From a virus, in the IMG/VR virus record IMGVR_UViG_3300006790_000098, positions 1-26,433 of that record: a DNA stretch of 26,433 nucleotides. The stretch is one strand, 5' to 3'. Of this stretch, positions 1-12,128 are shown in pieces; within the stretch, counting starts at the first letter, position 1; every line of letters starts with the position of its first letter. The position numbers were made by a program, and so were the translations under genes. Under the pieces are notes generated by a model. The model searched no databases and was not told the DNA's origin. It was given only the letters and a program-made list of their open reading frames with translations.

Positions 1-54
1 GTCAGCCCCCGGCACAAGGCCGGGAGCTTGAGGCAAAAAAAAGAAGCGGACACG

Positions 55-86
55 AAAAAGCCCCCGCCCGAAAAAGGGCGAGGGCT
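55..86 (-). terminator. Rho-independent terminator of the minus-strand gene
   Basis: Read on the minus strand, an 11-bp stem (plus-strand 76-86 pairing with 59-69, one G-T wobble) closes a six-base loop at 70-75 and is followed directly by five T (plus-strand A at 55-59). It lies about 20 bases beyond the stop codon of the gene at 107-709. There is no T tract in the plus direction, so it should work only for the minus-strand transcript. A smaller GGCC-GAAA-GGCC hairpin sits between it and the stop codon. Confidence 0.8.
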
Positions 87-106
87 GGGGCCTTTCGGCC
101 GGGGGT

Positions 107-709
107 CTACTCGTCGGATTCATCCAGGACAGTCTGAATCGCGTCGGCAATCTGGCCGCTCGGGATGATTCCCTTCTCCCATCCCTGGCAGCCGGTCCCG
201 GTCTCATTCAAGAACGTGGGAGCGTTGCCCTTTTCGACCCACTTGTTCCATTTCTTGGCGAGCCAGGCGCCGGGGTTCCCGACGTCTTCCCAGACCTCCA
301 GGGAGACGGCCTTGTCTTTGAATGAGCGGAACACTTCCACAAGCGCAACCATCTGCCGCTGTTCCTCGCTCATCTTCTCAACGTCTGCCATTGAGTAACG
401 GCGCATCAGGTACGCGGCCTGGCTCCCGCCTTGGGAGACCAGGAGGGAGACGTAGGCGAGAGCCTCTCCCTTCTTGTTCTTGACCACGAGCCGGGCCCGT
501 TGGGCGTCGACTCCCTCACTGCTGACGGTGTACCCGGCTGCCGCAAACGTGGTGAGCTTCAATCCGGAGCACTCTCCCAAGTGTTCCAAGGCCGTACCAT
601 TCTGCCAAACCGAGGGAGCCGGCATCTTGCCACGGCTCTTTGAATAGAGAGGGAAGCTCCGAGCGGTGAGCTTCACGGCGGGCGCAGTGTTCTTGTTCTT
701 GGTTGTCAT
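107..709 (-). CDS. Hypothetical phage protein, 200 aa
   Basis: I do not recognise the family. The protein begins MTTKNKNTAPAV, has a basic, Lys/Pro-rich N-terminus (about residues 1-30), a mixed alpha/beta middle with a probable beta-hairpin around the stretch reading RARLVVKNKKGEALAYVSLLV, a helical Glu/Met/Arg-rich segment, a Trp-rich portion (VWEDVGNPGAWLAKKWNKW) and an acidic C-terminal tail ending VLDESDE. It has no signal peptide or membrane segment. I chose the ATG at 709 because GGAGA lies at a proper distance upstream on the minus strand; the longer reading back to 838 would run through palindromic control DNA and is less likely. It is the only minus-strand gene in the window, divergent from the late operon and closed by its own terminator, a position typical of a regulator or an early/accessory gene, but no DNA-binding motif is visible. 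Confidence 0.75.
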   Translation of the reverse strand: MTTKNKNTAPAVKLTARSFPLYSKSRGKMPAPSVWQNGTALEHLGECSGLKLTTFAAAGYTVSSEGVDAQRARLVVKNKKGEALAYVSLLVSQGGSQAAYLMRRYSMADVEKMSEEQRQMVALVEVFRSFKDKAVSLEVWEDVGNPGAWLAKKWNKWVEKGNAPTFLNETGTGCQGWEKGIIPSGQIADAIQTVLDESDE

Positions 710-791
710 GTCATTGTCTCCAGTGCTCTCCAGGAGAGAGCGGAAAATGGGCGCCCAGGGGCGACCCTCCAGGGAAGCCGCCCTGGACCGT

Positions 792-808
792 GGCCACACT
801 GTGTGACC
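792..808. repeat. Near-perfect 17-bp dyad
   Basis: CACAC and GTGTG flank a central T at position 800, and the outer bases pair again (GG at 792-793 with CC at 807-808) with one mismatch between 794 and 806. It lies upstream of the minus-strand gene. It could be a protein-binding site; no function is shown. Confidence 0.5.
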
Positions 809-827
809 AAAGGTCCACTTAATGGAA

Positions 828-841
828 TGAATGGCCATTCA
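828..841. repeat. Perfect 14-bp palindrome
   Basis: TGAATGGCCATTCA is fully self-complementary. It sits ten bases left of the 44-bp nested dyad and about 120 bases upstream of the start codon of the minus-strand gene, which suits an operator. No known regulator can be assigned. Confidence 0.6.
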
Positions 842-850
842 CTACCGTGA

Positions 851-878
851 TTGACATTTCCTTGACACGGCCTGAAAT
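851..878 (+). promoter_or_regulatory. Candidate sigma70-type promoter inside the dyad
   Basis: A perfect -35 hexamer TTGACA (851-856) is followed after 16 bp by TGAAAT (873-878), four of six matches to the -10 consensus. It points toward the virion operon and would give a leader of roughly 280 bases. It overlaps the symmetric half-sites, so a protein bound there would compete with RNA polymerase. The TTGACA may simply be part of the operator repeat. Confidence 0.4.
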
Positions 879-894
879 GTCCAGAATATGTCAA
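851..894. promoter_or_regulatory. 44-bp nested dyad with four TTGACA-type half-sites
   Basis: TTGACA occurs at 851-856 and 862-867. The inverse occurs as TGTCCA at 878-883 and TGTCAA at 889-894. The four half-sites are exactly symmetric about position 872.5 and each pair is spaced 11 bp start to start, about one helical turn, so a dimer of dimers could bind on one face. Additional matched bases give an extended arm (TTGACATTTC against GAAATGTCCA). The geometry is seen directly; that it is an operator is an inference. Confidence 0.65.
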
Positions 895-911
895 CTGAAA
901 GCCTGGCCGTG

Positions 912-947
912 GAACACTGTACAAACGTACAGGTGAACAAGTGTTCA
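912..947. promoter_or_regulatory. Hairpin and LexA-box-like palindrome
   Basis: CTGTAC-AAAC-GTACAG (917-932) is a perfect 6-bp hairpin. It is followed immediately by the perfect palindrome TGAACA-AG-TGTTCA (934-947), whose core GAAC-AAGT-GTTC fits the Gram-positive LexA/DinR core GAAC-RNRY-GTTC. Outer arms GAACACT (912-918) and AGTGTTC (940-946) also pair. Both cores share a GWAC-N4-GTWC pattern with centres 16 bp apart. Assignment to LexA is a consensus-based suggestion only. Confidence 0.45.
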
Positions 948-964
948 GGTAGGGGTGGGGGTCT

Positions 965-1019
965 CTCCCTGTGTGCTCCGTGTGTGCGCTCCCTGTGTGT
1001 GCCGTGTGTGCTCGCTCCC
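965..1019. repeat. CTCCC/TGTGTG direct repeat
   Basis: CTCCC recurs at 965, 989 and 1015, separated by near-identical GT-rich spacers (period 24, then 26 bases) containing TGTGTGCTCCGTGTGTGC-type sequence. The array is about two and a quarter units long. It could be an iteron-like protein-binding array or only slippage-prone low-complexity DNA. Confidence 0.55.
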
Positions 1020-1143
1020 AGGAGACCACCAGCTATTGACACCGACCACCGCGTAGACCCGTGCTGAGGCTTGGGGCCCCATCCCCTCTTCTTACATCCC
1101 GCTTTCTTGTTGACCCCCCTCTTTCATGCGCGACCATTTTTGG

Positions 1144-1168
1144 GTGTACTCACATGTTATTAGTACAC
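1144..1168. repeat. Inverted repeat abutting the first operon start codon
   Basis: GTGTACT (1144-1150) pairs with AGTACAC (1162-1168) around an 11-base loop that itself contains ACATGT. The right arm ends one base before the ATG at 1169. In the mRNA it would form a 7-bp hairpin over the translation start region, and no Shine-Dalgarno sequence is visible here, so it could be a translational operator. Function is inferred. Confidence 0.45.
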
Positions 1169-2092
1169 ATGTCTCGTTCTGCGATCTTGCATCTGCTCTA
1201 CCATCCGGGCATCCCAGAGCGGCCGTATCTGCCGCACTTCTCGGTCACGGACATTACCTGGCCGCAGATTCTGGTGGGGTTCGGGTCGGCGCACCCGTAT
1301 ACCTGGCACTTGAGGCGTGGTTGGCGCAGGCAGTACAAGAAGAAGCAGCGTGCATGTAGGCTAAGACTCTTATCTGCCGGGCAAATGGGGGAGGAGTGCC
1401 TCAGCCAGACTTTTGCGGTGGCTCAAGCGGAGTACCCGACTCGGCTATTCCGGGCGTTTAAACTAGAGGATCCTCCGAGTCCTTATGAACTCGCATGCTT
1501 TCTCTTCACCTGGGCACTCCCTCAGGGGGAAAAGGGGGCGTCCGCTCAATGGGGGCGGAGTGCTCTGCTGTGGTGGCTCGCGGGAATCAGTGGCGAAGCA
1601 CTCGCACAGATATATCCGGAATGGGAGGAAGGTGCAGGGAGAGAGATCGAGCGGTTGATGAAGACGCCGATGTTCGCGATCTGGGCGCTCGGGACCGATA
1701 TGATTCCAGCGATTAAGTCGCCCACGGATGCACGAGCGCTCTTGTCATTCGGGCCGACCCGGAGACCTAAAGTGGTTGTACGGGCGTTCGAGTCGATGCG
1801 AGCGTCGATCTACGTGAATTCCCATATTTCTTCAGGCAAAAGGGGGAGGGCGGCGAAGCGATGGCTCCCGGAGTTCCGCCCGCTGTGGCATACTCTTGAC
1901 GAGCGCATCGAATGGGAGGAGGATGGGAGATGGATGCCGCGTCTTATGGGCATGAGAGAGGAGGCCGCGAGGCTCTTAAAGTACGACAAGTCTTGGATTC
2001 CGAAGCCCAGAGAGGAAAACATCCTTAGAGATTCGGACGTAACTGGCTTATACATAGAAGAGAACCGGCATCCCGGTTTACCCTGGAGATAG
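1169..2092 (+). CDS. Hypothetical protein, possible DNA-recognition or packaging protein
   Basis: First gene of the rightward operon, about 307 aa from this ATG. I do not recognise the family. It is rich in Trp, Arg and Pro, with a basic patch reading RRGWRRQYKKKQRACR in the first third, then a helical section (SPYELACFLFTWALP, RSALLWWLAGISGEALAQIY) whose GISGEALAQIYPEWEEG portion could be a helix-turn-helix, followed by a basic C-terminal half. The start is uncertain: GTG at 1061 and ATG at 1154 are in the same frame, but none has a clear ribosome site, the 1061-1153 stretch looks non-coding, and 1154 lies inside an inverted repeat. Its stop is two bases from the next start. Position ahead of the terminase genes would suit a DNA-recognition subunit or late regulator; that is inference. 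Confidence 0.65.
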   Translation: MSRSAILHLLYHPGIPERPYLPHFSVTDITWPQILVGFGSAHPYTWHLRRGWRRQYKKKQRACRLRLLSAGQMGEECLSQTFAVAQAEYPTRLFRAFKLEDPPSPYELACFLFTWALPQGEKGASAQWGRSALLWWLAGISGEALAQIYPEWEEGAGREIERLMKTPMFAIWALGTDMIPAIKSPTDARALLSFGPTRRPKVVVRAFESMRASIYVNSHISSGKRGRAAKRWLPEFRPLWHTLDERIEWEEDGRWMPRLMGMREEAARLLKYDKSWIPKPREENILRDSDVTGLYIEENRHPGLPWR

Positions 2093-2609: not shown

Positions 2610-4889
2610 ATGGCTGAGGATCCGAGAGCTTTGATGCGCCAGCAAGCCTCCCAGAGGGCGTTGGCGACAGACGAGAGCAGCAGGCTCCAACAAGCTCTCG
2701 AGCGGGTAGGAATCGTTCTTCTACCGGGCTCTGCTGCCTTCAAAGAACTCATGGCTACTCTAAAGACCTATTCGGACGAGACTGGCCAGACCTTCCAGAG
2801 TGTCTTGGCTGATCGACGGCAGATGAATGATATTTTCCGAGGAAAACCGGGCCTTCCGACAGAGGGCAGAGCGGTAAGAGAACGGGATGTACTGTCTGAT
2901 GAACTCGCAAAAGCGAGGGAAAAAGTCACGCGAGCCATAAAATACTCTACGGCCGAGCAGAGCCCTCGGCTGGCCCGTTATGCCGATGAAGTTCGCCAGT
3001 CTGAGCCTGCGGCAGGATCAGATCCCGGCAGAAGAACTGGATTAAAGGGAGGAGCAACCCGCGTTTACGGTCCTACGGAGCGCGAGGCTATGGCCGCGTT
3101 CCAGAAAAACGTCGATCCAGAGTTCTTAGACAGACTTTCTTTTGTCCATTGGACGGACCATCCAAGAGGCATGATGGCAGGAGTTCGAGGGATTCCAGTT
3201 ACTGGTGATGCTCTTTCTGCGAGCATTTATTTGAGGGGAGATCCAGGAGGAGTAGGCTTTTCTGGCAATCGCTGGGATCAAGGAGACATGGGATTCCTTC
3301 TTGATGGCGATGTGACCTGGATGGGCAACTACGATGCGATGAGTGCTAGGGGAGAAATTTCAGGGCGCCACACCACAAGTCTTGATCCTATTCTTGACGA
3401 AGACACCTACTTGACCCAGCAGGCTCGGAGTTCTCTCAATCCTGATATGAAGGAGATATATGACAGGCTAGGCGAAGCAGAAGCTTCTGGTATGCGGGGT
3501 ACACGACATGAAATTTTTGGGATGTCGGACGAGGTCGCGTGGGAACCTGAAGTGGGCAATATCAATGAAGCCCTCATCGAAAAGCCCAGAGTTCGAGGAA
3601 TCGTCGTTGATCCTAAAGGCCATCGATTACGGCAAGTACAGGGAGTAGTGACTCCCGCGAGGCGTCTTCGTCCGGGCCACGTTGCACGGTCGCTTGGACA
3701 AGCAATAATCGCAGCAGAGGAAATGGGTGTTCCTCTTTACGGGCCCGACGGAGTTGTGCTCTACACACCACCAAATATGTCGAGAGAAGAGGTGGCTCGT
3801 GTGTCTCGAAACTTTCCTACAACCGAAAATATCCAAGGCATTACTCCAGAAGAGTTTGCTTCTGGAGGGCGCTGGGCCGCTCATCCAGAGCATGGAGGCG
3901 TGTTTCGGGTGGATGTCCGGGATCAGGCGGTGAAGCGATTAACAGACGAAATCCGCCTACACGAAGTTCCGGGGTATGAGGCAGCCCACGATAAAAAAGA
4001 AACTCTCCATACCAGGTCCGAAGGGCCACGAACGACTCCTCTTACTTCACCGGAGGAGTTGGAAGACGCAGTCCAACACTTTCGGGCACGTCCAGATTTT
4101 CGGGTAGAAACAGACATTGTAGACGCTAACTACAACGAGGTACTTCCGGAAAAGCTGAAGTATGAGGAGTTAGAGCCTCGGCTGAGCGCCTCGCATAGTC
4201 CAGGCCCAGTGTCTTCGACTAGGCTCGATGAGTTCCAGAGAGTCCGAGACCAGATACAAGAGGCAGAAGAGCGCCTAGCGCAAGCCCCTCCGGGCTCACC
4301 AGAGTCGAGAGAAGTCGCCTCAAAACTCGCAAAGGCGAAAGCTGCTCTTGCAAAGCTGGGACACCTCGCAGGTGTTGCAGGAACTGCCTATGAGGGTGGC
4401 CGTCTCCTCGGAGAAGTCGCACGTCATGGTCCTCTAGAGGGCACTCAACGCTATGGCGGAACGCTGGCCAAAGAGTTCGGTGGCATGGCTCAGATTCCTG
4501 CCGCCCTCGCCGAGACTTATGTTCCTGGATACGGGGAACGCGGAGTACACCCCGGCGCTGAACTGCTCGCAGGGGCGGGCCGTGCGCTACAGAGAGGAGG
4601 CCGTGCTCTTCGAGGAGAACGAGAAGAGATTGGAGGAGTAGGTCTCGATCCCAATATTCAGGGCCTTGATGACATGGACCTGGGCATTCCAGAGTACACT
4701 CCACCGGAGATGACTCCTGAGCAGAAAGAACAACTCCGCAGGGCACAAGAGCAGCCATTACCTGAATATCTTCAACCCCTCAGACCTAATCTACCCCTGG
4801 GCAGACCTCCTGATCTTCGCGAGCAGACAAGAAATGCAGCCCAGAGAGCGTTGATGAGTAGTCGAGAAAGAGACGAAGAAAACTTATGA
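2610..4889 (+). CDS. Large multidomain protein with an enzyme-like middle region, 759 aa
   Basis: Residues 1-130 are helical and charged. Residues about 175-335 form a compact globular-looking block beginning LSFVHWTDHPRG, continuing through ASIYLRGD, GDMGFLLDGDVTWMGNYDAMS, HEIFGMSDEVAWEP and ending NINEALIEKPRVRGIVVD. The early HW(T), later aromatic strand and late NEALIE resemble in layout the His-Tyr-Glu core of ADP-ribosyltransferase-like folds; this is a low-certainty suggestion. Residues about 355-440 are another mixed alpha/beta block. From about 545 there is a coiled coil (QIQEAEERLAQ, ASKLAKAKAALAKLG), then a Gly/Ala-rich segment typical of virion proteins that interact with membranes, and a Pro-rich tail. 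GGGAGA precedes the ATG, and the stop overlaps the TerL start (ATGA). Such a protein between terminase genes is unusual; it may be carried in the virion. Confidence 0.75.
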   Translation: MAEDPRALMRQQASQRALATDESSRLQQALERVGIVLLPGSAAFKELMATLKTYSDETGQTFQSVLADRRQMNDIFRGKPGLPTEGRAVRERDVLSDELAKAREKVTRAIKYSTAEQSPRLARYADEVRQSEPAAGSDPGRRTGLKGGATRVYGPTEREAMAAFQKNVDPEFLDRLSFVHWTDHPRGMMAGVRGIPVTGDALSASIYLRGDPGGVGFSGNRWDQGDMGFLLDGDVTWMGNYDAMSARGEISGRHTTSLDPILDEDTYLTQQARSSLNPDMKEIYDRLGEAEASGMRGTRHEIFGMSDEVAWEPEVGNINEALIEKPRVRGIVVDPKGHRLRQVQGVVTPARRLRPGHVARSLGQAIIAAEEMGVPLYGPDGVVLYTPPNMSREEVARVSRNFPTTENIQGITPEEFASGGRWAAHPEHGGVFRVDVRDQAVKRLTDEIRLHEVPGYEAAHDKKETLHTRSEGPRTTPLTSPEELEDAVQHFRARPDFRVETDIVDANYNEVLPEKLKYEELEPRLSASHSPGPVSSTRLDEFQRVRDQIQEAEERLAQAPPGSPESREVASKLAKAKAALAKLGHLAGVAGTAYEGGRLLGEVARHGPLEGTQRYGGTLAKEFGGMAQIPAALAETYVPGYGERGVHPGAELLAGAGRALQRGGRALRGEREEIGGVGLDPNIQGLDDMDLGIPEYTPPEMTPEQKEQLRRAQEQPLPEYLQPLRPNLPLGRPPDLREQTRNAAQRALMSSRERDEENL

Positions 4890-6586
4890 GCCAAGCGAAC
4901 GCAGCACAGCTACTCAACACGCTCCGTTCTCCGGCGCACGCCCTGCCCGCATTCGGAGAAGTACACGACCAGAAGACCGGTCGATTCGTTAAGTACAACC
5001 CTCTGGGCATCACCAGCCTCTTACAGAAAGCCGTACTAGACTACATGTCCGCTCCTCCTCGCCTGGCCACGGGTGAGACGAAGTTCTTCACTCTCTTGGG
5101 CTACCGCCAGGCAGGTAAGAGCCTGACGACGGAGTATGCGGCCTACTGCAAGGCGGCGTACATTCCAGGATGGGACCATGTCTGTATCGCAGATAACCGA
5201 GATCGTGCCGATTACCTCCACAAGAGGGTCCATCATCTCCACCAGAGGTGGCCGAAACAGCTTCGCTCCAAGACCCTCGCGACTCGTGAAAGCCGCCAGC
5301 TTACCTTTGATCCCCTACAGGGCGGTAAGATGCGTGTCCTGTCGGCAGAATCGGGCGCGGTTGGCGTGGGGCAGTCTCCTGACTCTTTCCATGCTTCCGA
5401 GTGCCATCTTTGGTCCGACTTCGATGGCTCTATGTTCCTCATCAACCCGTCGCTTATCAACCGGCAAGAGGCGCTTGTCGTCTTTGAAGCAACGCCTTGG
5501 GAGCGAAATTGCGCGTGGCATGAGCACTACACGATGGCGAAGCAGGGTTCCGGACGCCATGAAGCCCATTTCTTTCCATTTTGGGATGGGGCACTCAACC
5601 GGAGGCCCGTCACACCCGACTTCCAGCCTACGAATGAGGAGATTGGACTCCTAAATCGCTATAAACACCTGGGCCTACAGGAAGAAAACTTAGTTTTCCG
5701 GCGATTCATCATGGATACGGACCCTGAGATCCGCCGAAATCCCGAAATGTTCGGGGTCATGTACCCATTCGACGACCTTTCGTGCTGGATTGCGTCCGCA
5801 AACTCCGCGATTCCGGAACATGCGCTAAAAAAACACCTTGTTCGCGAGCTTCGGCCCTGGAATGGGCCCTATCAGGAGTATGAACCGCCTCAAGAGGGCG
5901 CAATTTACGCGATTGGGGTCGATCCGGCCGGATATGCGGCCCGAGACCACGCTGCTTTCCAAGTTTTGAAGTGTTGGCGCGGAGAATGGACCCAAGTGGC
6001 GTGTTTCGCGGACCACGTGGACCCGTTGAAGTTTACGAACGAGCTTATGCGCGTCGGAAAACGGTATAACAAGGCTCTGATGGCCGTAGAATCGAACGGC
6101 GTCGGGCAAGCCGTCCTTTCTCTCCTACAAGAGCGTGGATATCCGAATGTTTACCACGAAGGCCGCATGCGTCCGGGCTTTACGTCCACATCGAAGTCAT
6201 TAGACGAGGCTACAGGCTGGCTCGTGGATTCTCTGCTCGATACGCTGGTTTTTAACGACCATGATACGGTCCAACAGCTACAGACGTACAAAAATGACAA
6301 GCGAGTAGAGGAGAGTGCCAGTGCGGAGATTCTACGAGGCGCTTCGAGCGGAAGAAGACGGGACAGACACCACTGGGATAAAGTTTCTGCGCTACTCATG
6401 GCGATTGTCGCGGCCCGATATCTGCCCAGAAGAGATAAGCCAGGTGCTCCTATTCGTGATTCAAACATCGTAATGTTTACGGGAATGAGCTACGATGATC
6501 AGGAAAAGTACCGACAACGTCTTTCCGACGATAAGCCTACGAAAAGACAACGATTCTCGTACCGATCCGTACGAAGGAGAAAGTAA
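4886..6586 (+). CDS. terL: Terminase large subunit (packaging ATPase and nuclease)
   Basis: TerL pumps phage DNA into the procapsid through the portal and cuts the concatemer. The ATPase half shows Walker A GYRQAGKS (residues 72-79) after the strand FFTLL, a Walker B-type block with the catalytic Ser-Glu at HASECHLW (169-176), and a coupling motif FEATPW (200-205). The RNase H-like nuclease half shows the three acidic residues expected: D346 in YAIGVDPAG, E402 in LMAVESNG and D498 in HHWDKVSALLMA. Length of 566 aa is normal for the family. All motifs are intact, so the enzyme should be active. It overlaps the preceding gene by four bases (ATGA) and its stop overlaps the next start (TAATG), indicating translational coupling. 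Which packaging type (headful or cohesive end) it uses cannot be read from these motifs. Confidence 0.96.
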   Translation: MSQANAAQLLNTLRSPAHALPAFGEVHDQKTGRFVKYNPLGITSLLQKAVLDYMSAPPRLATGETKFFTLLGYRQAGKSLTTEYAAYCKAAYIPGWDHVCIADNRDRADYLHKRVHHLHQRWPKQLRSKTLATRESRQLTFDPLQGGKMRVLSAESGAVGVGQSPDSFHASECHLWSDFDGSMFLINPSLINRQEALVVFEATPWERNCAWHEHYTMAKQGSGRHEAHFFPFWDGALNRRPVTPDFQPTNEEIGLLNRYKHLGLQEENLVFRRFIMDTDPEIRRNPEMFGVMYPFDDLSCWIASANSAIPEHALKKHLVRELRPWNGPYQEYEPPQEGAIYAIGVDPAGYAARDHAAFQVLKCWRGEWTQVACFADHVDPLKFTNELMRVGKRYNKALMAVESNGVGQAVLSLLQERGYPNVYHEGRMRPGFTSTSKSLDEATGWLVDSLLDTLVFNDHDTVQQLQTYKNDKRVEESASAEILRGASSGRRRDRHHWDKVSALLMAIVAARYLPRRDKPGAPIRDSNIVMFTGMSYDDQEKYRQRLSDDKPTKRQRFSYRSVRRRK

Positions 6587-7193: not shown

Positions 7194-7404
7194 ATCTCTG
7201 CGAGACCAACTCATCCAGAATATTTTGAAAGGCAGTCGCAATGCGACTAAAGAGTCTGCAGCGGTATCTTCTGAAGGGGCACCGTCTGTAGGTACGGCTC
7301 CGGTCTCTCCCCAACGAGAACTAGAGCAGGAAGAAATCGACGAGCTACTCGATGAAGAATCTCGTCCGGGCACACAAGTGGAGCAAGGGAATGTCTCTCA
7401 ATAA
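7177..7404 (+). CDS. Small protein, 75 aa
   Basis: Not recognised. The first third is an amphipathic basic helix (MATALRSLRDQLIQNILKGS), followed by a Ser/Pro-rich linker and an acidic helix (REL EQEEIDELLDEE), ending QGNVSQ. I chose the ATG at 7177 because GGAGAGG (7167-7173) precedes it; a longer frame from 7099 has no ribosome site. It starts inside the previous gene (17-base overlap) and ends 14 bases inside the portal gene, so translation is probably coupled to both. A small head or portal accessory role fits the location, without motif support. Confidence 0.65.
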   Translation: MATALRSLRDQLIQNILKGSRNATKESAAVSSEGAPSVGTAPVSPQRELEQEEIDELLDEESRPGTQVEQGNVSQ

Positions 7405-9241
7405 AAAGCAGATTCGGGGTCTAATCGACACCCACAAGGCGAAGTCCCACATCGACCAGCGAAGCTGGGATCAGGTCCGTTCCTGGTACACCAGCAACGC
7501 CGGGAATCAGTACGGAACAGACGTGCCCCAGGGCGCAGAAGCCGTCGATGAGATGCAGGACCTGTCTTTCCAGACCAACTATCCGTACGCATTCGTCGAT
7601 ACGATGGTCGCTAACATCTGCCCGAACAACCCCGAGGTCACCGTCAACGCCCGACGGAAGCACCTCCACGAGCCTGCCCGTTACCGTGAAGCGCTCATCA
7701 ATGACACCCTGAATCGTGTCCGCAGCCACCGTATTTTGTGGCGTGCGGCTACGATGGCAAGCGTGTACCCACGCTCTTTCGTCAAGACAGTCTGGAACTT
7801 CAAGCGCCGTTCTCCCGACTTCCTTGTGATTGATCCTCGCTATGTCTGGTACGACATGTCGGTAGATCGCTGGGAAGACATTCGTTATCTCATTGAGGTT
7901 ACCGTCCTTACGCGCCAAGACTTCGAGTCTCGCGTCAAGCGCTCTGAGAACGACCCTAACGAAGATCGCGTGTACAACACGAAGGTGGCCGAGAAGGCCC
8001 AGTTCGGTGCATACCCTGAGTGGCTCCGAGATCGTCAGCGTGACCAGACTTTGATGAACGAGTCTTCCAAAGAAGTCTTCGAGTGGGTCACCGTCTACGA
8101 AGTCTACGACTTCTCGGGCGAAGGCCGTTACCACCACTATTTAGAGGATGAGGACGAAGCGCTTTTCAGCGGAGACCTCCCCTATCGATTTGTCCGCAAC
8201 CCATTCTACCGTCTCATTTTCAACGACAATCTTGAGAACATTGGTGGACTCAGTGACGTGACACTGATCGCTCCTGTACTTGAGCGGCTAAACGAACTGG
8301 ACACGTTGATGTTGTGGTTTGCCCAGACGGCAATCCCAATCACGATGCTGAACACAGGGCTTGTGGACAACCCGGAGAGGATACGGACTCAGCTTCGCGA
8401 GGCCACTTCTCCGGGCTCTATTGTTGAAGTCGCCGGGAAGTCTGGAGCTTCCATGGCAGACATCATTGGCCACACGATGACGCCGAGCCTGTCGCCAGAG
8501 TTCATGGCTTCTCGTGATCGCTGCATGCAGGTAATCGAGTTCATCCTCGGCATCCCGCAGTACTCGCGTGGAGTTGTCGGCGTGTCGGATGTCGCTACTG
8601 AGGTCGCGCTCGCAGACACTGCAACGCGTACTCGAAACGGACGACGCCAGCAGCAGATCTACGATCTTCTCTCCTGGCAGGCCCAGGGCATTGTCGGACT
8701 CTATGAGGAGTTCTTGGCAGAAGACGAAATCCTCCCAGTCCGTCTGCTCCCGAACTCCGAGATGATTGAGATTACGCGAGCCTCGATGTTGGCCCGTGAG
8801 ATCCTGGCTGGGCGAGGCGAAGAGCCTCTTGAGTACGATTACCTCGCAGTGCCGTACTCTCCTACCGAGAACAACCGACTGGTCCAGCTTCGGAATCTCA
8901 GCCAGTACTTCGAACTGCTGATGCAGAATCCACAGGTTGACCAGAGCCGACTCATCCAGAAGTTGTGTGAGCTTCTCCAGATGGAGGACGTCCTCAAAGA
9001 CACAGCACAGCTTGAGGCAGAAGCGAAGTCTGCAGAACAGCAGGCTCAGCAGGCCCAGGCTCAGGCAGGAATGGTCGGAGGGCCAGGCAACGACACGATT
9101 GCCAGCGGTTCTCTCCCTCCGGGCACAGAGCCCGTGATGCCGCCTCTTCCAATGGGCGGAGCAGGGAACGGCCAGAGTCCTCTGACTGGATTCGGCGGAG
9201 CACCCTTTGATCTCAATCCGAACATTCCGAAGGATCAGTAA
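7391..9241 (+). CDS. Portal protein
   Basis: The portal forms the dodecameric ring at one capsid vertex through which TerL threads DNA and to which the tail adaptor binds. About 616 aa, suiting a podovirus portal. The N-terminal half carries wing/clip-type alpha/beta segments (SWDQVRSWYTS, FLVIDPRYVWYDMSVDRWEDIRYLIEVT), the middle has the long helix and turn expected for stem and tunnel loop (LERLNELDTLMLWFAQTAIP, then GIPQYSRGVVGVSDVATEVALADTATRTRNGRRQQQIY), and the C-terminus has a Gln/Ala-rich coiled coil (AEAKSAEQQAQQAQAQAG) followed by a Pro/Gly/Met-rich tail. I prefer ATG 7391, giving MSLNKKQIRGL, to the frame-extending ATG at 7352, which lies inside the preceding gene. Its stop overlaps the next start (TAATG). 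Identification rests on position after TerL, size and these features. Confidence 0.88.
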   Translation: MSLNKKQIRGLIDTHKAKSHIDQRSWDQVRSWYTSNAGNQYGTDVPQGAEAVDEMQDLSFQTNYPYAFVDTMVANICPNNPEVTVNARRKHLHEPARYREALINDTLNRVRSHRILWRAATMASVYPRSFVKTVWNFKRRSPDFLVIDPRYVWYDMSVDRWEDIRYLIEVTVLTRQDFESRVKRSENDPNEDRVYNTKVAEKAQFGAYPEWLRDRQRDQTLMNESSKEVFEWVTVYEVYDFSGEGRYHHYLEDEDEALFSGDLPYRFVRNPFYRLIFNDNLENIGGLSDVTLIAPVLERLNELDTLMLWFAQTAIPITMLNTGLVDNPERIRTQLREATSPGSIVEVAGKSGASMADIIGHTMTPSLSPEFMASRDRCMQVIEFILGIPQYSRGVVGVSDVATEVALADTATRTRNGRRQQQIYDLLSWQAQGIVGLYEEFLAEDEILPVRLLPNSEMIEITRASMLAREILAGRGEEPLEYDYLAVPYSPTENNRLVQLRNLSQYFELLMQNPQVDQSRLIQKLCELLQMEDVLKDTAQLEAEAKSAEQQAQQAQAQAGMVGGPGNDTIASGSLPPGTEPVMPPLPMGGAGNGQSPLTGFGGAPFDLNPNIPKDQ

Positions 9242-11033: not shown

Positions 11034-12128
11034 ATGGCAATTAGTCCTGACGTACTAGCAACTGCGTTGCAAGACCTGGCCCCTGGGTATTCGGAGTTGT
11101 TTTCTATTTGGCACCCACTCATGGAGCGGGTTGTCCTCAAAGGAAACGTCGATCGAGCTACCCTGAAAGGCCCCTACCGTGAATTCGTGGTCGTTTCTGA
11201 CGGCCCCGGAACCGTGACCCAAGTGTTGACCGGTTCTGAAGTTATTGCTGGCGGACGTCGCCAGAACGCACAGCGCGGAGACACCTATGCTCCCCGCCTG
11301 ATTTACGCGTTTGACGTTCCCGGTAAGGACATGGCTGAGGCAAATGGTGAGAACGATCTCGCTCGCATCATTAAGCGCTACCCCGAGTTGGCTCTGTCCG
11401 ACTTCCACGAGCGCATTGCTGACCAGCTTGGTGGTGGTAACTCCACTGCTGGCGTTGGTGGCTTCCTCACCCTGAACGGCGACCAAACCTACAACCCCGA
11501 GGGAACTGCTCGTACCGGTGTGTTCGAGTACGATACCCCCGCTAACCAGGCCGACACCGTGTTCAACCTGGCTAAGCAGGGTGCTGCAGGCGGTGTGTCT
11601 GGCTGGTACAACCAGTACGGACAGATCTCGTCCTTCGCTACTGACGGTCGTTCGACCATGCGTCAGGTCTACTACGCTGCCTCCCGCCAGGGATCTAAGG
11701 CAAGCGGTCCTGTGGATCTGCTCCTCGGTGACGAGACTTCTTACCTCAACTACATCGACGACCTGGACGATCAGGTCCGCGTGATGCGAGTTGACGGTGA
11801 CAAGGCTCCCGCCAACATGCGCCAAGGAATCCCCTTCCTCGAGGCAGACTTCTTCTTGGAGCAGGCCATCACCGACGGAATCAACGCTGGTAACTTCACC
11901 AGTGGTGGTTCGAACAACGGTGTGATCTACTTCCTGAAGACCGACACCTGGCACATGTACACCCTCGGACACGATTCCGGAATGGAGACCAAGGGCGACT
12001 TCGCCGTTCGCGGTCCTATCCGTATCCCCGAGCAGGACATGTGGCGCTACGAGTACGTCCTCAACATGGGAATGTACTGCGACCAGATGCGTGCGAACGG
12101 TGTTGTTACCGGCGGCGCAATCCCATAA
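11034..12128 (+). CDS. Major capsid protein (HK97-type fold)
   Basis: The shell-forming protein, 364 aa, preceded by GAGGA nine bases before the ATG. It begins MAISPDVLATALQDLAPGYS and contains the extended loop-like region (VVVSDGPGTVTQVLTGSEVIAGGRRQN), the spine-helix region (DLARIIKRYPELALSDFHERI), a Gly-rich stretch (QLGGGNSTAGVGGFLTL) and a C-terminal beta-rich domain ending with GPIRIPEQDMWRYEYVLNMGMYC. These features and the length suit podovirus and siphovirus capsid proteins of the HK97 fold. Arg codons are almost all CGC or CGT while neighbouring genes use CGA frequently; this suits high-level translation. It lies between scaffold and decoration genes. I see no maturation protease in the window, so no protease-cleaved delta domain is predicted. 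Confidence 0.93.
   Translation: MAISPDVLATALQDLAPGYSELFSIWHPLMERVVLKGNVDRATLKGPYREFVVVSDGPGTVTQVLTGSEVIAGGRRQNAQRGDTYAPRLIYAFDVPGKDMAEANGENDLARIIKRYPELALSDFHERIADQLGGGNSTAGVGGFLTLNGDQTYNPEGTARTGVFEYDTPANQADTVFNLAKQGAAGGVSGWYNQYGQISSFATDGRSTMRQVYYAASRQGSKASGPVDLLLGDETSYLNYIDDLDDQVRVMRVDGDKAPANMRQGIPFLEADFFLEQAITDGINAGNFTSGGSNNGVIYFLKTDTWHMYTLGHDSGMETKGDFAVRGPIRIPEQDMWRYEYVLNMGMYCDQMRANGVVTGGAIP

Follow-up and report, generated by a model that had tools for sequence, protein, structure and literature searches.

Lying in the divergent region where the leftward genes and the late operon part, the nested dyad of four TTGACA-type half-sites at positions 851-894 of the window is very probably a genuine cis-regulatory site. 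The window is the whole IMG/VR virus record analysed here, 26,433 bases long, in which the structural genes read rightward. On the evidence of sequence comparison, the dyad is probably (at roughly 0.6) an operator for a putative cooperative regulator in a divergent early/late control region, composed of two inverted copies of a unit, TTGACA-N5-TTGACA, that recurs in the phage family. The wider and more interesting result is a promoter form that recurs in phages and carries two additional TTGACA boxes; no description of it was found in the literature searched. The elements of the control region are as follows.

828..841, no strand assigned: perfect 14-bp palindrome TGAATGGCCATTCA, adjoining the dyad
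851..894, no strand assigned: nested dyad, two inverted TTGACA-N5-TTGACA copies with 10 bp between them
851-856, 862-867, 878-883 and 889-894: its half-sites, TTGACA, TTGACA, TGTCCA and TGTCAA, respectively
851..867, plus strand: rightward-reading unit TTGACATTTCCTTGACA
878..894, minus strand: leftward-reading unit TTGACATATTCTGGACA, in the orientation seen at the homologous place in two relatives (G003, G005)
918..947, no strand assigned: second candidate operator, tandem 14-bp palindromes TGTACAAACGTACA-GG-TGAACAAGTGTTCA, SOS-box-like

The four half-sites were found where the preliminary description had placed them, with 11 bp within each pair, so that the window has two TTGACA boxes exactly 11 bp apart, as does the phage-family unit. 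The centre at 872.5 was also given correctly, and the box spacings are 11, 16 and 11; the mirror symmetry, however, is not exact as had been claimed, the third box being TGTCCA rather than TGTCAA. Compared with the named pattern, the dyad is an exact match on the plus strand and has one mismatch on the minus strand, and as an inverted repeat it has 17-nt arms, 82% complementary, with 10 nt between. Its order exceeds chance, as had been proposed: the pattern never arose in 100 dinucleotide shuffles, even with three mismatches allowed (0 expected), and when any hexamer was allowed in this layout (gaps of 3-9 within the repeat and 0-24 at the centre, no more than one mismatch), 851-894 was the sole instance in the 26.4 kb, while 20 Markov replicates yielded none.

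The dyad is non-coding, with a leftward gene on one side and the rightward structural operon on the other, and lies within the largest intergenic region (about 707-1060; the right edge moves to 1168 with the later start of the late gene). This region had been called the only intergenic one, which is wrong, as others exist. The flanking and reference genes are listed below.

107..706, minus strand: 199-aa ORF, first leftward gene, counterpart in position of the small first genes in G003, G005 and C243
1061..2092, plus strand: first gene of the rightward late operon, for which a GTG start is listed and ATG at 1169 is an alternative; its homologues head the same operon in relatives
4886..6586, plus strand: terminase large subunit (TerL), the query for finding relatives
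7352-9241, rightward: portal
11034-12128, rightward: major head protein

The palindromes at 918-947 appear similar to the LexA-type GAAC-N4-GTTC palindrome and to SOS boxes, among them the M. xanthus consensus (PMC9705874). Their tandem layout recurs at the homologous place in one relative (L004, 3580-3609), and another, L279, has one related SOS-box-like palindrome at about 34-47, adjoining a TTGACA unit.

The TerL search yielded 54 IMG/VR loci and two bacterial-assembly loci. No cultured relative was found by DNA, TerL leading only to distant ones of about 24% identity, and a short promoter query against cultured phages gave no match. Among direct TTGACA pairs (at most one mismatch) in the 54 TerL relatives and the window, 20 were at 11-bp spacing, the sole enriched value, against 0-7 pairs at each other spacing from 7 to 39 bp. 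The unit was present in 20 of 41 full records, with a low reversed-pattern control. It lies within 700 bp upstream of the first-late-gene homologue in seven of 15 lineages (the window, L003, L005, L010, L021, L083 and L082), where 0.04 would be expected, and 200 randomisations of these upstream regions gave at most one lineage with a unit. The remaining eight of the 15 lineages lack it there. Thus, about half of the lineages keep the unit, its spacing and its position. At this place the unit faces left in G003 and G005 and is followed by TATAAT or TATATT at N31; in L010, L021, L082 and L083 it stands without a clear -10 box, and L083 has four perfect tandem 11-bp boxes upstream of the first-late-gene homologue. 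In G004, G005, G006, G065 and C243, a second unit with a -10 box at N30-31 precedes a PD-(D/E)XK nuclease gene. The leftward genes constitute a replication operon in relatives; those of G005 encode AAA_5, DUF2201, a VapE/DUF5906-type primase-like protein, a helicase, a PD-(D/E)XK nuclease, an AAA_24 ATPase and DNA polymerase A.

One of the loci compared, L082 (4236-11689; G041, Myxococcales assembly CP070713), is a late cassette of terminase, portal, head and tail genes inside a bacterial chromosome, directly following pyrF-, SpoU- and CinA/MoCF-like genes. No matches to early genes of related phages were found in the 100 kb examined. The locus might represent a provirus in decay, a cassette of the gene-transfer-agent kind or an assembly join.

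What is conserved is the direct repeat TTGACA-N5-TTGACA and not the mirror arrangement. The comparison with related phages that had been suggested as a check thus bears the reading out by half: the half-sites, their 11-bp spacing and their place recur in relatives, but the full four-site mirror is absent from the window's closest relatives with a readable region. An IMG/VR scan for the nested form with centre gaps of 0-30 gave three further matches only: L055 (gap 10), L280 (gap 9) and L279 (gap 25). The first two are other contigs, L055 having five direct and two inverted boxes; L279 is a TerL relative (51-53% identical) whose long control region holds seven units and a nested dyad of its own. 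The mirrored form therefore does recur, yet with just three other matches it is rare and no family hallmark. Mirror-symmetric regions of about 330 bp were also observed in L032 (2830-3183), L033 (510-838) and L035 (3472-3790): both ends carry a TTKACA-N5-TTGAC unit that points inward (one of the two in L035 being degenerate), and TGTAACC repeats at about 10-12 bp come after each unit.

In many other phages, the unit was found as part of a multi-copy promoter form. An IMG/VR scan for TTGACA-N5-TTGACA-N{20,45}-TATAAT gave, among the matches listed, 18, 45 and 11 unique sites at N31, N32 and N33, respectively, compared with 0-7 at any other spacing. The pooled form, TTGACA-N5-TTGACA-N8/9-TTGAC-N17-TATAAT, comprises at least 152 unique sites; its consensus is ctCTTGACATTctCTTGACAAntTa..TcTTGACtt..tgTATAAT, and the third box most often precedes the -10 box by 17 bp. 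Sites at N30-34 were detected in 29 of 31 records tested, most of them picked for scan matches already found, and the reversed control gave 0. In records with several sites, all are on one strand and mostly in one region, and ORFs commonly begin 20-50 bp downstream. When the promoter pattern was searched for in 682 bacterial genomes of two phyla (398 + 284), the sole match was a phage contig in the 2.6-Mb assembly G042, in which the exact repeat occurs in that contig only. A host regulon in the two sampled phyla is disfavoured, because the pattern matched a phage contig only. No description of tandem TTGACA phage promoters was found in the open-access literature searched.

Does the window copy itself act as a promoter? 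A TTGACA-N16-TGAAAT promoter had been suggested to overlap the dyad, and it is unsupported: TGAAAT matches the -10 consensus in four of six positions and has no A at position 2, and a standard sigma-70 scan of window positions 1-1300 returned 0 promoters. At N29-34 of the two units, the best -10 match is 3/6 leftward (GGTAGT) and 2/6 rightward, and the triple-TTGACA form, with a -10 box at N30-33 and a third -35-like box, is absent in either direction. Since no -10 match here exceeds 3/6 and the sigma-70 scan was empty, 851-894 is better called an operator than a promoter.

Several candidates for the binding protein were considered. The minus-strand product of 199 aa, put forward earlier for a binding test, has no Pfam match and no recognisable DNA-binding domain, gives one borderline PHROG hit of unknown function, and has no homologue detected among the loci compared. 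Its structure model (pLDDT 38) is unusable, and that of its positional counterpart in G005 is partial (pLDDT 61.5; strands, then helices). Nothing points to this protein as the binder, given the lack of a Pfam match, a homologue or a usable model. A phage-encoded OmpR-type regulator was not found, its domain (PF00486) being absent from 24 phage records; an OmpR-type protein supplied by the host is possible. Broad Pfam/PHROG scans of some early genes named no CII-like protein. A comparison of 16 promoter-bearing genomes left just one widely shared protein, a DUF2201 VWA/metallopeptidase-like protein (14 of 16), which is no DNA binder. As an observation in its own right, this DUF2201 gene is common to the window's family and to unrelated large phages (14 of the 16 genomes compared), and an AAA/MoxR-like ATPase gene lies near it in several of these genomes.

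Sigma-70 region 4 is the module that reads TTGACA. Small proteins with this region (PF04545 over cut-off) were found in nine of 41 records searched, all of promoter-form phages (G046, G049, G053, G055, G057, G058, G063, G067 and G068); six of the nine are about 87 aa long and have a Cys cluster (for example, L251 14106-14369, minus strand). The window's close relatives had none in their records. The standalone protein, real in nine promoter-bearing phages, was therefore rejected as the window's binder, being absent from these relatives, and is a lead for those nine phages only.

What would the site do? Cooperative regulator binding is its most natural reading, because the half-sites stand one helical turn apart. 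A putative DNA-binding regulator, phage-encoded or perhaps the host's, would occupy a single face of the helix, each TTGACA taking up one subunit, with cooperative binding along each 11-bp repeat. In relatives, the unit is located at a fixed 30-33 bp before the -10 box and immediately upstream of the -35 box, which would be the position of a transcription activator. Since the window's two units face each other, a four-subunit assembly is proposed; it would determine how the leftward genes are balanced against the rightward late operon, and control could reach either or both. The analysis shows the sequence itself, its non-randomness, how unit, spacing and position are kept in relatives, and the constant distance to -10 boxes outside the window; for the window, we infer protein binding, its cooperativity, activation over repression and the direction controlled. 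The reading as a cooperative operator, as originally put forward, is plausible, with the half-sites and the 11-bp spacing recurring at a homologous place, but its promoter and its suggested binder are unsupported.

Beyond the window, a more tentative proposal, to which we give somewhat less than even chances, is that of an undescribed phage-specific control system in which the core promoter is preceded by two extra -35-like boxes at helical spacing; these boxes, present many times in each genome and in unrelated uncultivated phages, would be read by a phage-encoded factor, the window being a mirrored switch operator of this system. In some large phages, the factor is possibly the standalone sigma region 4 protein.

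A repressor operator is unlikely, although it is the alternative with most to recommend it. The TTGACA-reading protein would then block RNA polymerase. As the -35 consensus is likewise TTGACA, promoters would be shut off by boxes that overlap or adjoin a -35 element, and the dyad would silence genes at the early/late switch. This is consistent with the third TTGAC of the multi-copy promoters being the -35 element itself, with the inverted TGTCAA boxes of L279 coming after a -10-like sequence, and with the two further palindromic candidate operators beside the dyad (828-841 and 918-947). Both conserved boxes of the multi-copy promoters, however, lie upstream of the -35 element, the usual place for activation, and no repressor gene was identified. 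It is improbable that the boxes are extra -35 elements that dock sigma region 4 of the host RNA polymerase or of a standalone phage protein, instead of binding an ordinary regulator. Every box does equal the -35 consensus, and the nine carriers among 41 records are all promoter-form phages; yet the region 4 protein is absent from the records of the window's close relatives and from many promoter-bearing records, though many of these are fragments. The iteron-like arrays (four tandem boxes in L083, five direct and two inverted in L055, seven units in L279) would suit a replication origin or partition site whose tandem 11-bp boxes serve as iterons for an initiator or segregation protein, but the sharp distance to the -10 box and the many dispersed copies before genes fit promoters and not a single origin, making this very doubtful. 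An origin by chance, or as a side effect of constraints on coding or composition, is barely credible: the mirror form is rare among relatives, but the non-coding location, the statistics and the positional conservation of the unit speak against it, and the result in seven of 15 lineages largely refutes it.

The timing of genes in uncultivated phages is little known. A promoter signature that is fixed, searchable and repeated many times in unrelated phages, and nearly missing from the sampled bacterial genomes, offers a direct handle on their early genes and frames a concrete question: which protein reads the tandem TTGACA boxes? In the window, that box has taken the form of a mirrored site where early and late genes meet.

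How does the site compare with known systems? Sigma-70 promoters share the TTGACA box, and relatives have a -35-like box and TATAAT 16-18 bp apart; the difference lies in the two extra TTGACA boxes 11 bp apart upstream, and the window is without an adequate -10 box either way. Lambda-type cooperative repressor operators and mycobacteriophage stoperators have several half-sites in a divergent control region, with dispersed multiple copies in some genomes. The TTGACA sites resemble them in both respects, but the unit here is an 11-bp direct repeat, and no repressor gene was identified. Lambda CII activator sites, TTGC-N6-TTGC flanking the -35 element, resemble the TTGACA unit in being direct repeats, spaced by about a helical turn, in the -35 region of phage promoters; the unit differs in sequence and lies upstream of the -35 element rather than around it. 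The E. coli Pho box differs from the TTGACA unit in sequence and in orientation relative to the -10 box. Compared with OmpR/PhoB sites in general, the TTGACA form is phage-specific in the genomes sampled, no OmpR-type domain occurs in the 24 phage records, and the mirrored four-box form of the window is not typical. Nevertheless, the TTGACA unit has the 11-bp direct-repeat architecture of an OmpR/PhoB-type site. Such sites (Pho box; M. tuberculosis PhoP, PMC4832192) share with it 11-bp direct repeats, up to three or four boxes, at promoters, and PhoB/PhoP-type regulators bind these 11-bp-period direct repeats as cooperative tandem dimers (PMC4832192).
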